Shown in pieces: positions 46,808 to 51,941 of a stretch of 64,000 nucleotides of DNA (the first letter of the stretch is position 1; every line of letters starts with the position of its first letter). The notes under the pieces are model-generated. The model worked only from the letters and a program-made list of their open reading frames with translations, was not told the origin of the DNA and searched no databases. This stretch comes from Microbacterium lushaniae. GTDB lineage: Bacteria; Actinomycetota; Actinomycetes; Actinomycetales; Microbacteriaceae. Where the stretch lies: the NCBI RefSeq assembly GCF_008727775.1, contig NZ_CP044232.1:3410001-3474000 (forward strand), read 5' to 3'. Position numbers and translations under genes: made by a program.

Positions 46808-48214
46808 CTACTTGGCGCTGGCGGTGCGCCAGCCGCCCTGGTACTCGGTGCGCGCGGTCTCGGCGTACGGCACCGGGCTCACGATCGCGCGGATGGCGAT
46901 CTGCTCGTGCGGCTCGACCGTGGTCTTGCCGGAGCCGCCGTCGGGCTCACCCCACACCACGCGCACTTCCGCACCCACGGGGACATCCGCATCCACCGTC
47001 GCCAGCGACAGGCCGCGCTTCTCGTTCGCCGTGACGCCGGTGAACAGCGACAGGCCGACCGTGTTGCCGTCCGCGTCGATGACGGCGTCGTAGTTGGACG
47101 AGCCGTAGTTGGCGTTGGGCAGGTCGAAGAACTGGTAGCCCGGGCCCTCGCGGTCCAGAACGCTCGCGAGCACCTTGGTGAGGTCTTCGTCATTCCAGGC
47201 GAGGGTGACCTTGCGGCGCTGCGCCGACGGGTCGATCTTCTCGAGTGCCTCACGACCGATGAAGTCGTGGTCGAACTTCACGAACGAGCCGTACCCCAGC
47301 TCCCACGGGTTGAGGTAGTAGTCGTCGATGTCGGCCGAGACGAACGATCCCGCGAGGGCGTTGATGGCCTCGTAGCTGTTGCCCGGCAGCCACTCGCGGT
47401 ACCGGCGCTCGATGTCGCCTCCGCTGTAGACGGCGGGAAGCGGCGAGGGGATCCAGCCCGACTCCAGGGTGTTCGAGGAGTAGGCGCGCGAACCGCACGG
47501 CTCGATCCCGAACTCGGCGCCGGCGGAGAGGATCGCGTCGCGGATCTTCTCGTGCTGCTCGTACGGGCCCCACAGCTCCAGTCCGGGGGCTCCGGCCATC
47601 CCGTGGCGGAGCGTGCTCACCTGCTCGCCGGCGATGGTGAGGTGACCCATGTGGAAGAACTTGACCTTCTCCAGGGTCCCGCCGTTGAGCTTCTCGATGA
47701 TGGCCCACGCGTTCGGCCCCTGGATCTGGAAGCGGTAGTACTCCCGGTGCACGGCCTTGCCGTACGGGCGCGACGGGGAGCGGTCGTCGTAACGGAACTG
47801 CACGTCGTATCCGCCGGTCTCGGCGTGGAACTGCAGCCAGTTCGCCGCCGGCGCGCGGCCGACGTACACGTACTCGCCCTGGGTCTCGTGGAACAGGATG
47901 CCGTCGCCGATCACGCCGCCGTTGGATGCGGTGGGCACGAACTGCTTCGCGGTGCCGACGGGGAAGTTCGCGAAGCTGTTGATGCCCGTGTCGCTCAGGA
48001 GCTTCAGGGCGTCGGGGCCGGAGATGAAGAAGTTGACCATGTGGTGGGTCTGGTCGTACAGCACGGCGGTGTGACGCCATGCCTTCTGCTCGCGCCGCCA
48101 GTTCGTGAACTCGGCCGGCACCACCGGGTAGATGTAGGTGCCGAGTTTGGAGTCACGGAGCATCTGGACGATGCTCCCTCGCTCGTCCATCAGCTGCTGC
48201 AGATTGTCCGCCAT
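46808..48214 (-). CDS. ligM: THF-dependent aromatic O-demethylase (LigM/DesA-like, GcvT family), copy 2
   Basis: 468 residues, colinear with the copy at 7779 (shared [78 protein letters not shown]). It transfers an aryl O-methyl group to THF. It is divergent from genes for gallate-type ring cleavage, so 3-O-methylgallate, giving gallate, is the most economical substrate. Vanillate or syringate are alternatives. The ATG at 48214 follows GAGGGAG. The methyl-THF produced could be handled by the metF-purU pair at 5963. Confidence 0.87.
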
Positions 48215-48284
48215 GTCGGCTCCCTCGACCTCGTCGTCCGTCGTATGGGGTCCGGCGCACCGGTTCCCTCTGCCCATAGTGGTT

Positions 48285-48313
48285 TTGGTAACCAAGATTG
48301 TCAACAGAATCTT
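48285..48313. promoter_or_regulatory. Overlapping dyads in the ligM/galB divergent promoter
   Basis: TTGGT-A-ACCAA (48285-48295) is followed, with a two-base overlap, by AAGATT-N8-AATCTT (48294-48299 and 48308-48313). This AT-rich patch between the divergent demethylase and ring-cleavage operon is a good candidate for a MarR-type operator controlling both. Confidence 0.55.
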
Positions 48314-48404
48314 GCTCCGGGGACGGGAGTGTGGTTCGCTGTCACCGGATCGACCGGGCACGCATCGCGGCGTGCGCCGGTGACGATCCGCGACGGGAGT
48401 GGAC

Positions 48405-49861: not shown

Positions 49862-50921
49862 CCGCTTCGGCGCCGGCATCCGCTGCATGCTGATGCGCGG
49901 CGGCACCTCCAAGGGCGCGTTCTTCCTGGCCGACGACGTGCCGGCCGATCCCGCCGTACGCGACGATCTCATGCTGCGTGTCATGGGCAGCCCCGACCCC
50001 ACCCAGATCGACGGGCTGGGCGGCGCGCACCCGCTCACCTCCAAGGTCGCGATCGTCTCGAGATCGACGCATCCGGACATCGACGTGGACTATTTGTTCC
50101 TGCAGGTCGCGGTGGACGAGCCCGTCGTCGCCGACGCCCAGACGTGCGGCAACCTGCTCGCCGCCGTGGGTCCGTTCGCCCTCGAGCGCGGGCTCGTCGC
50201 CGCCTCCGAGCCCCGCACCACCGTCCGCATCCGGCTCCTGAACACCGGCGACGTCGCCTCGGCGACGTTCGCGACGCCAGGCGGCGCACCCGAGTACGAC
50301 GGCGACGTCGCGATCGACGGCGTGCCCGGCACGGCCGGCGGCATCTCGCTCGAGGTGACCGGAGGCGATAAGGCGCTCCTGCCCACCGGACACGTGAGCG
50401 AGGAGATCGCCGGGCACCGCGTGACCCTCATCGACAACGGGATGCCGGTGGTGCTGCTGCGGGCGGACGAGTTCGGGGTCGCCGGCGACGAGAGCCCGGA
50501 AGAACTGGAGGCGCGCCCCGACCTGCACGATGCGCTCGAGAGCGTCCGCCTCGAAGCCGGCCGGCGCATGGGGCTGGGGGATGTGACCGCCCAGACCGTG
50601 CCGAAGATGATCCTGCTCTCCCCGCCCACGCACGGCGGGGCCATCGCCACGCGCGCGTTCATCCCCTCCCGCGTGCACACCTCGATCGGCGTGCTCATGG
50701 CGGCGTCGGTGGCCGCCGGCATCCGACTGCCCGGCGCCGTCGGCGCTGACCTCGCCGAGCTCACCGGCGACGTCACCGACATCGAACACCCCACGGGGAC
50801 CTTCCCCGCCACTGTCACGGTGTCGCACGCTGACGAGGGCCGCTGGCTCGCGTCATCGGTCTCCACGCGCACCGCCCGCAAGATCTTCGACGGCACGGTC
50901 TTTCCCCGGCCGCGCCCCTGA
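49848..50921 (+). CDS. galD: 4-oxalomesaconate tautomerase (PrpF family, GalD-like)
   Basis: 357 residues of the PrpF family. N-terminal CMLMRGGTSKGAFF, the GLGGAHPLTSKVAIV stretch, the cysteine-containing QTCGNLLAAVGPFA and the second-domain HTSIGVLMAAS are hallmarks. In gallate pathways GalD converts the keto form of 4-oxalomesaconate to the enol form required by GalB. Other PrpF proteins isomerise aconitate, but the operon argues for the gallate role. Confidence 0.9.
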   Translation: MAAADRFGAGIRCMLMRGGTSKGAFFLADDVPADPAVRDDLMLRVMGSPDPTQIDGLGGAHPLTSKVAIVSRSTHPDIDVDYLFLQVAVDEPVVADAQTCGNLLAAVGPFALERGLVAASEPRTTVRIRLLNTGDVASATFATPGGAPEYDGDVAIDGVPGTAGGISLEVTGGDKALLPTGHVSEEIAGHRVTLIDNGMPVVLLRADEFGVAGDESPEELEARPDLHDALESVRLEAGRRMGLGDVTAQTVPKMILLSPPTHGGAIATRAFIPSRVHTSIGVLMAASVAAGIRLPGAVGADLAELTGDVTDIEHPTGTFPATVTVSHADEGRWLASSVSTRTARKIFDGTVFPRPRP

Positions 50922-50945
50922 ACACCTGTCAGAGAGGACCCCTTC

Positions 50946-51941
50946 ATGGCCACCAGCGAGAATTACGACATCGCCCACCTCGGCGGAGTCGAACTGTTCA
51001 CCCCGAAGTTCGAGGAGAGCCTGCACTTCTTCCGCGACCTGCTCGCGATGCGGGAGGTCGCCCGCATCGGCGACTCCGCCTACCTGCGCTGCTGGGACGA
51101 GTACCAGCTGTACACGCTCAAGCTCACGGCATCCGACACCAACGGGGTGGGACGCACGCTGTACCGCGCGTCGGGCCCGGAGGCGCTGGAGCGCCGTGTC
51201 GCAGCGATCGAGAAGACCGGGCTCGGGCACGGCTGGCGTGATCCGGAGGTGGGAGTCGGGCGCTCGTACGAGTTCGAGGACCCGGACGGCCACCTGATGG
51301 GCATCTACTACGACACCGAGCTGTACGTCGCCGACGACGAGGACCGGCCGGCACTGAAGAACCAGGCCTCGGCGTTCCCCGGTCGCGGCGTGAACGTGCG
51401 GCGCATGGACCACATCAACTACCTCGCCGCCGACGTGAACGCGGCCGGGGAGTTCTGGCGCGACGTCATGTGCGCCCGCGAGTCCGAGCGCGTGCGGCTG
51501 GACGACGGGCGGTACGGGGCGTGGTGGTTCCGGTTCAACCAGAAGTCGTACGACGTGGTGTACTCCGACGACTGGACGAAGCAGCGCGGGCGCTTCCACC
51601 ACTTCGCCCTCGCCCCCGACACGCGCGAAGACATCCTCAAGGCCGCCGACATCTTCCTCGAGAACGGCGTGCACATCGAGTACGGCCCGTACAAGCACGC
51701 CATCAACCAGACGTTCTTCCTGTACGTGTGGGAGCCCGGCGGCAACCGCATCGAGCTCGCCAACGCCGGCGCGCGGCTGATCCTCGACCCCGACTGGCCC
51801 GTCGTGGAGTGGACGCAGGCCGAGCGCGCGAAGGGTCAGGCGTGGGGCATGAAGACGATCCCCACGTTCCACACCCACGGCACGCCGTACGTCGAGGGCC
51901 AGGAGGAGCTGGACCGGAAGGCCCTCGCCGGCGAGCTCTGA
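50946..51941 (+). CDS. VOC-superfamily (type I) extradiol ring-cleavage dioxygenase
   Basis: 331 residues in two vicinal-oxygen-chelate domains (about 1-145 and 150-295). The iron triad is visible in the C-terminal domain: His156 in MDHINYL, His218/His219 in RFHHFAL and Glu270 in NRIELAN, as in catechol 2,3-dioxygenases. Context with GalB, GalC and GalD means the product should be 4-oxalomesaconate, so the substrate is most simply gallate, or 3-O-methylgallate if the product is a methyl ester. Known gallate dioxygenases are type II (LigB-like), so this would be a different solution. No semialdehyde dehydrogenase or pyrone hydrolase for a protocatechuate 4,5-route is present. A strong terminator follows. 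Confidence 0.85.
   Translation: MATSENYDIAHLGGVELFTPKFEESLHFFRDLLAMREVARIGDSAYLRCWDEYQLYTLKLTASDTNGVGRTLYRASGPEALERRVAAIEKTGLGHGWRDPEVGVGRSYEFEDPDGHLMGIYYDTELYVADDEDRPALKNQASAFPGRGVNVRRMDHINYLAADVNAAGEFWRDVMCARESERVRLDDGRYGAWWFRFNQKSYDVVYSDDWTKQRGRFHHFALAPDTREDILKAADIFLENGVHIEYGPYKHAINQTFFLYVWEPGGNRIELANAGARLILDPDWPVVEWTQAERAKGQAWGMKTIPTFHTHGTPYVEGQEELDRKALAGEL

Follow-up and report, generated by a model that had tools for sequence, protein, structure and literature searches.

Gallate is a building block of tannins and lignin, and it serves as a hub for tannins and syringyl lignin. In the literature cited here, the gallate dioxygenase DesB of Sphingobium SYK-6 is a type II enzyme of the LigB family (PMC3962378), and AromaDeg groups gallate dioxygenases in the LigB superfamily (PMC4250580). 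A pathway scheme that includes GalA and DesB gives GalB, GalC and GalD as the partners of GalA, and has the cleavage of 3-O-methylgallate lead to a methyl ester or to 2-pyrone-4,6-dicarboxylate (PDC), which need a methylesterase or LigI (PMC12314914). No gallate dioxygenase of the vicinal oxygen chelate (VOC, type I) superfamily was found in the available part of the open-licence literature, and to our knowledge none has been described. We analysed a stretch of 64,000 nucleotides from the soil bacterium Microbacterium lushaniae (contig NZ_CP044232.1, positions 3,410,001 to 3,474,000; hereafter the window), in which the gene for a VOC-type extradiol dioxygenase follows genes for GalB-, GalC- and GalD-like proteins. 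An earlier note made from the letters of this stretch (the original prediction) had held that characterised gallate and methylgallate dioxygenases are LigB-type, and that the VOC enzyme should be a gallate or 3-O-methylgallate dioxygenase from an unexpected superfamily. This proposal is supported by the gene order seen in other genomes, by hydratases that replace one another, by operons that stand alone, by a tannase neighbour and by a tyrosine at position 202, and we consider it highly probable that the gene encodes a type I gallate dioxygenase.

The original prediction had placed a LigM-like demethylase gene divergent from genes for GalB, GalC, GalD and the VOC enzyme, and all five genes were confirmed by family models and solved relatives. 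LigM is encoded on the minus strand and the block GalB-GalC-GalD-VOC on the plus strand, at 48399-51941 (Table 1). The genes for a 4-oxalomesaconate (OMA) tautomerase, an OMA hydratase and a 4-carboxy-4-hydroxy-2-oxoadipate (CHA) aldolase, as expected beside a gallate dioxygenase, are thus all linked to the VOC gene. LigM scored 896 bits against NF047885 (cut-off 580) and 614.9 bits on the model for the syringate demethylase DesA, under its cut-off of 800; the DesA search did not extend to the rest of the genome. Its start is likely at 48214, and the longest open reading frame would begin at 48406. The best solved relative of the GalB-like PIG-L protein was 5cgz, an OMA hydratase (E 2.6e-79), and an alternative ATG start lies at 48405. 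Its assignment as a bacillithiol or mycothiol deacetylase was rejected, as those NCBIfam models gave at most 65.7 bits, far under their cut-offs. The GalC gene has a GTG start and a 4-base overlap with the GalB gene; its product scored 316 bits on NF006731, above the cut-off of 179, and 286 bits on TIGR02798, below the cut-off of 304.5. GalD narrowly passed NF033377 (447.9 bits, cut-off 440).

The predicted fold of the window VOC protein is the two-domain VOC fold. Its best solved fold matches by VIA-align were alkylcatechol, dihydroxybiphenyl and catechol dioxygenases, and neither LigB-type enzymes nor the structure 9wgj were among the 50 fold-match rows. The metal ligands named in the original prediction (His156, His218/219 and Glu270) are all in the window protein according to the alignment, and across the rows of at least 420 bits His156 was conserved in 85/85, His219 in 84/85 and Glu270 in 85/85. 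The best curated family of the protein was TIGR03211 (catechol 2,3-dioxygenase), at 285.4 bits below the cut-off of 320.2.

The 80 genome loci with the closest relatives of the VOC protein, of which most of the nearest come from Microbacterium, were used for comparison of gene neighbourhoods. At least one OMA-pathway gene was present in the fetched stretch of 70 of the 80. The hydratase beside the VOC gene was GalB in 48/80 loci and LigJ-type in 17/80, the latter assigned from one member (L029: 2gwg, E 4e-150; 6dxq, E 4e-138), and the two never occurred together (p ~6e-9). Because either of two unrelated OMA hydratases accompanies the same VOC enzyme, their swap ties the cluster to OMA. A LigM-like gene was present in 66/80 loci, in some as a relative of only 42-49%.

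Linkage was also counted in two genome panels. In the family panel (249 genomes) the OMA tautomerase gene lay within 170 bp of the VOC gene and on the same strand in 15/15 VOC genomes (E ≤ 1e-90), and co-occurrence was significant (Fisher p ~4e-14); in the class panel (394 genomes) it lay within 170 bp in 17/19 (E ≤ 1e-60). Pooling both, with G000, G164 and G194 common to the two, gave 29 of 31 distinct genomes. The family-panel count used 30 of the 38 genomes with an OMA tautomerase, eight weaker or cut-off ones being dropped, plus 22 LigB rows; the class-panel count used all 27 tautomerase rows plus 14 LigB rows. The arrangement of VOC with GalD is far beyond chance. One class-panel exception, G610, is a 44% relative that has His and no gal gene near. 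When the VOC gene was absent, a LigB-family gene lay ~2.4 kb from the tautomerase gene in 11/15 family-panel genomes with a strong tautomerase, and within 3.3 kb in 4/10 tautomerase genomes of the class panel. The VOC and LigB ring-opening superfamilies replace each other, and the split is not absolute.

Gallate in particular is indicated by three contexts. The operon at locus L111, Streptomyces-like, reads GntR-GalB-GalC-GalD-VOC followed by an aromatic acid/H+ symporter-like gene, an order repeated in L114, and the four gal genes are present in L116. The hosts are large actinomycete genomes, and many named matches of their VOC protein are from Streptomyces. The symporter-like protein scored 277-287 bits on TIGR00895, below the cut-off of 418.6. 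Genes for a demethylase, a dehydrogenase, an esterase or a PDC hydrolase are absent from this operon. An operon without extra enzymes speaks for gallate, because OMA formation from gallate takes no further step, whereas the route from protocatechuate also takes oxidation and hydrolysis, and that from 3-O-methylgallate takes hydrolysis of an ester. A plasmid of a walnut Agrobacterium tumefaciens carries GalB-VOC-GalC-GalD and then a tannase (PF07519, E 6.8e-131), and the same four genes are found on plasmids of a grapevine Agrobacterium, a Thioclava and a Roseibium. In the window the context consists of LigM and of a tannase-like DUF6351 gene next downstream of the VOC gene, the latter a weak point in the case for gallate since it was found in only 3/80 loci. 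As a substrate, gallate appears favoured over 3-O-methylgallate, because cleavage of the latter needs a methylesterase or LigI, neither of which is in the Streptomyces-like operon, and because LigM in the window would remove the methyl group first.

The genome itself (one contig, 3.65 Mb, 99.99% complete) was searched for other routes. A separate LigB-type dioxygenase, the presence of which the original prediction had set against its own proposal, was looked for genome-wide as PF02900, and the profile search gave no match in the 3.65 Mb (a control matched in 4/14 genomes). The prediction had also held that no genes of the protocatechuate 4,5-route are present; this stands for PF02900 across the genome and probably for LigI, by the Amidohydro_2 lists, and does not extend to LigC, which was not searched. 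LigI, presumably represented in the structure library, was in no solved-relative list of the six genomic Amidohydro_2 proteins; their best solved relatives were ACMSD-type or carboxyvanillate decarboxylases, 3ij6 or BB4693, and never LigJ. Both subunits of protocatechuate 3,4-dioxygenase (PcaHG) are present, at 343.5 and 158.4 bits, over cut-off. With PcaHG present, no LigB-family gene and no LigI listed, protocatechuate therefore has its own route in this genome. The searches for ring cleavage covered PF02900 and VOC homologues, and cupin-type dioxygenases were not searched for. The window VOC query found four other genomic VOC homologues: the reading frame of one is disrupted, two show ~31-33% identity, and the fourth is HpaD-type (TIGR02295, 433 bits). 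All carry the usual His. At ~6777-7740 of L097 (G000:C1:921.8-922.7k) lies a 43% VOC paralogue with the usual His, whose frame is broken near its start and which is either a pseudogene or an assembly error.

Position 202, which corresponds by alignment to His200 of homoprotocatechuate 2,3-dioxygenase, the usual second-sphere catalytic His, was Tyr in 92/92 aligned rows of this family of VOC enzymes (the 80 loci, ten of them with no gal gene in the fetched stretch, the window gene itself and 11 panel genomes) and His in 8/8 rows of other homologues, representing six distinct genes. Among plasmid-borne homologues it was Tyr in 11/11 of the family and His in 3/3 others; gal genes were found in 10/11 of the Tyr stretches and in 0/3 of the His stretches. 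The eleventh Tyr stretch is that of Roseomonas, in which a CHA aldolase is 8.7 kb away, and one His stretch (Thermus thermophilus) holds dmpG and acetaldehyde dehydrogenase genes. In a hand-chosen subset of sequences that includes 3lm4, Tyr202 was found in 42/42 family members versus 0/11 sequences outside, and Lys138, Arg294 and Gln298 were equally family-specific. Among the 120 best matches of each of three queries, a sample that favours close relatives, Tyr was present in 359/360; the sole exception, P0335, has His and covers 69% of its query. In the tree the family forms a single clade (98/96), and its sister is 9wgj (91/84), under a long-branch warning for the outgroups; the tree label 'GalDlinked' stands on all family rows, though L040, L043 and L044 are without a gal gene in the fetched stretch and L106 is without GalD. 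Tyr202 marks this family of VOC enzymes and not strictly the gal context, since it is still present in the VOC genes of three genomes (G632-G634) in which no OMA tautomerase was found. By its fold and metal site the window protein would be a type I extradiol dioxygenase and by its context probably a gallate dioxygenase, outside both the LigB family and the curated catechol 2,3-dioxygenase family.

From gene order, protein families, the absence of LigB, the residue pattern and the predicted fold, the following reaction may be proposed. The 2-His-1-Glu centre (His156, His219, Glu270) would hold presumably Fe(II) or Mn(II), which would bind two adjacent hydroxyls of gallate, and ring cleavage would fall between C4 and C5. 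A further hydroxyl on the carbon adjacent to the diol would make the tricarboxylate OMA the product of this single step. OMA would then be isomerised by GalD, hydrated by GalB and split by GalC to pyruvate and oxaloacetate, with LigM supplying gallate from 3-O-methylgallate. Tyr202, in place of the second-sphere acid/base His, may face the third hydroxyl of gallate, and the carboxylate may be held by Arg294, Gln298 and Lys138. With somewhat less confidence than for the window gene, we think it probable that gallate dioxygenases evolved independently a second time in the whole of this large cross-phylum family (Actinomycetota, Bacillota, plasmids of Pseudomonadota, Thermus), in which catechol 2,3-dioxygenase and VOC family protein are frequent names. 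The Tyr that takes the place of the catalytic His of type I extradiol enzymes would act together with the third hydroxyl and place the cut between two carbons that bear hydroxyls.

Several observations weigh against this assignment. In ten of the 80 loci the fetched stretch is devoid of gal genes, though two of these (L003 and L009) end at a contig edge. When six such genomes were searched for the OMA tautomerase, three (G632-G634) gave none, two gave sub-threshold matches and one a strong match. L006 has Arg in place of the ligand His219. In the class panel, the VOC gene of G535 lies beside GalC and LigJ without GalD. Some PF02900 gene is also carried by 4/15 VOC genomes of the family panel and by G450 and G628 of the class panel. 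Clusters with GalB and GalD and no ring-opening enzyme in the stretch exist in G085, G244 and G121 (L098, L099 and L100), so GalB and GalD genes alone are no proof that OMA is made next door. On plasmid p1-AD3 of Roseomonas mucosa (L122) the VOC gene is near a LigB-type gene in one cluster, and in Thermus oshimai a 4-hydroxybenzoate 3-monooxygenase gene is near the VOC copy. Catechol 1,2-dioxygenase is the label of 9wgj, the closest structure solved so far by sequence, and the Streptomyces-like (321.2 bits) and Geobacillus (331.2 bits) members narrowly pass the TIGR03211 cut-off. The structure model is least certain in two loops of the active site (252-254 and 299-302), which precludes a reliable model of the carboxylate site.

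Some of these loci have further features. In L004 and L006 (G632 and G633), where no OMA tautomerase was found in the genome, the VOC gene stands opposite LigM and adjoins a methionine-synthase-like gene; as a speculation, such organisms might collect methyl groups and go no further than ring opening. In L098-L100 the GalB- and GalD-like genes stand with a DUF1932 oxidoreductase and an ABC transporter, and in L100 also with GalC; products of ring cleavage by other organisms might be taken up and used there. In L122 an alpha/beta hydrolase gene lies between the VOC and LigB-type genes, with a Rieske oxygenase gene downstream. The narrow TIGR03211 passes may explain the public names of the Streptomyces-like and Geobacillus members.

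Three other readings of the VOC gene were weighed. It could encode a protocatechuate 4,5-dioxygenase, the semialdehyde product of which is converted to OMA by an aldehyde dehydrogenase or the DUF1932 protein before GalD, GalB and GalC act. LigM-type enzymes, as their family name has it, also make protocatechuate from vanillate, and dehydrogenases are at hand in some clusters: in Thermus oshimai an aldehyde dehydrogenase gene is divergent from the VOC gene, with the 4-hydroxybenzoate 3-monooxygenase gene ~4 kb off, another lies downstream in Roseibium, and the DUF1932 oxidoreductase is recurrent. The DUF1932 protein, however, also occurs in clusters that have no dioxygenase, neither a dehydrogenase nor a PDC hydrolase is part of the Streptomyces-like operon, and the tannase neighbour in Agrobacterium also speaks against this reading; in the Microbacterium genome PcaHG is already present, with no LigB-family gene and no LigI seen. 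We therefore regard a protocatechuate dioxygenase as improbable. A 3-O-methylgallate dioxygenase, which would cleave the LigM substrate and leave a methyl ester to be converted to OMA by an unknown esterase, is in our view a little less probable again. The frequency of LigM-like genes among the loci is in its favour, as are L004 and L006, where LigM is 131 bp from the VOC gene and there are no gal genes in 10 kb. Against this, LigM would serve no purpose if the ring of its substrate were opened beforehand, and both an esterase and LigI are missing from the Streptomyces-like operon. In the stretch of the walnut plasmid, the gene table of which may be incomplete, a tannase is present and an O-demethylase is not annotated.

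Least credible, and very improbable, is an ordinary catechol 2,3-dioxygenase that stands in the gal cluster by chance or for another purpose. Many relatives are publicly named so, TIGR03211 is the best family of the window protein, and the best solved fold matches are dioxygenases of catecholic compounds. The protein is nevertheless under the curated cut-off of that family, its relatives are linked to GalD in 29 of 31 genomes, and Tyr202 stands against the His of homologues elsewhere, including that of the Thermus thermophilus dmpG stretch and the HpaD-type paralogue of the same genome. A gallate dioxygenase of the VOC superfamily is the reading that we prefer.

Table 1. Features of the cluster and its surroundings, in window coordinates.
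Feature	Position	Strand	Families and solved relatives
6-phosphogluconate-dehydrogenase-like protein with DUF1932 domain	41672..42439	+	PF03446 + PF09130
MarR-family regulator, possible regulator of the cluster	46329..46760	+	PF12802, PF01047
LigM-type tetrahydrofolate-dependent O-demethylase (vanillate / 3-O-methylgallate)	46808..48214	-	NF047885 equivalog, PF01571
Intergenic region separating the divergent LigM and gal genes, presumed to hold promoters from its position only	48215..48398	.	
GalB, PIG-L family OMA hydratase	48399..49154	+	PF02585; 5cgz
GalC, CHA aldolase	49151..49861	+	NF006731
GalD, OMA tautomerase, PrpF family	49848..50921	+	NF033377
VOC-type (type I) extradiol dioxygenase, proposed gallate dioxygenase	50946..51941	+	PF00903, no other domain
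Secreted tannase-like DUF6351 protein, LAxTG-type C-terminal sorting signal	52019..54835	-	PF19878, NF058582
Cobalamin-independent methionine-synthase-like protein (PF01717)	54974..56131	-	NF005085, 550.9 bits (cut-off 313)

The remaining genes of Table 1 recur to different extents. The DUF6351 protein scored 740.7 bits on PF19878 ('Tannase-like family of unknown function') and 35.3 bits on NF058582 (cut-off 27); it is possibly anchored to the cell wall, where it might release galloyl or feruloyl groups. The methionine-synthase-like gene was present in 28/80 loci, and its product may possibly provide the methyl acceptor step after LigM. A relative of the MarR-family regulator with 64-66% identity was present in the fetched stretch of 5/80 loci, and a 32% relative in a sixth. 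The DUF1932 protein was present in 35/80 loci, within OMA clusters or close to them, and its gene is between those for GalC and GalD in L101-L103. Further along the window are three cytochrome P450 genes (56240-57442, 60452-61681 and 62776-63999), interleaved with an ABC transporter at 57500-60455; none of the three (56.2-64.0 kb) reached a curated family cut-off.

If the VOC enzyme is a gallate dioxygenase, the cleavage of gallate arose in two superfamilies, many genes now named catechol 2,3-dioxygenase carry the wrong name, and the use of gallate is overlooked in genomes without a LigB-type enzyme. A natural exchange of His for Tyr would also test the role of the second-sphere residue; His200, His248 and Tyr257 of homoprotocatechuate 2,3-dioxygenase are described as steering extradiol cleavage (PMC6308299). 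For the production of OMA-derived chemicals, a VOC gallate dioxygenase with a single subunit could be a helpful component.

Among known systems, the nearest solved structure by sequence is 9wgj (E 1.4e-110), from the same Tyr-bearing family; over the aligned part it is identical to a Geobacillus zalihae protein, its highest identity to a row of the tree is 55%, and no paper on this enzyme was found in the open-licence literature. The homoprotocatechuate 2,3-dioxygenase of Brevibacterium fuscum differs in that its His200 is Tyr in the window protein; by their entry titles, its variants H200C, H200N, H200Q and H200E have solved structures, which makes the position a known probe of mechanism. The catechol 2,3-dioxygenases (AphC, 7q2a; RHA1, 3lm4; XylE, 1mpy) have His where the window protein has Tyr202 together with the family-specific Lys138, Arg294 and Gln298, and the window protein falls below their family cut-off and has OMA-pathway partners. 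PcaA of Pseudarthrobacter phenanthrenivorans Sphe3, a protocatechuate 4,5-dioxygenase, is likewise actinobacterial and forms OMA from gallate, as a side activity at 44% of its activity on protocatechuate (PMC8431788); unlike the window protein it belongs to the type II LigB family, and it prefers protocatechuate. GalA of Pseudomonas putida and DesB share with the window protein the proposed reaction from gallate to OMA and, in the case of GalA, the partners GalB, GalC and GalD, whereas they are LigB-family enzymes and the window protein consists of a VOC domain only, in a genome without a LigB-family gene.

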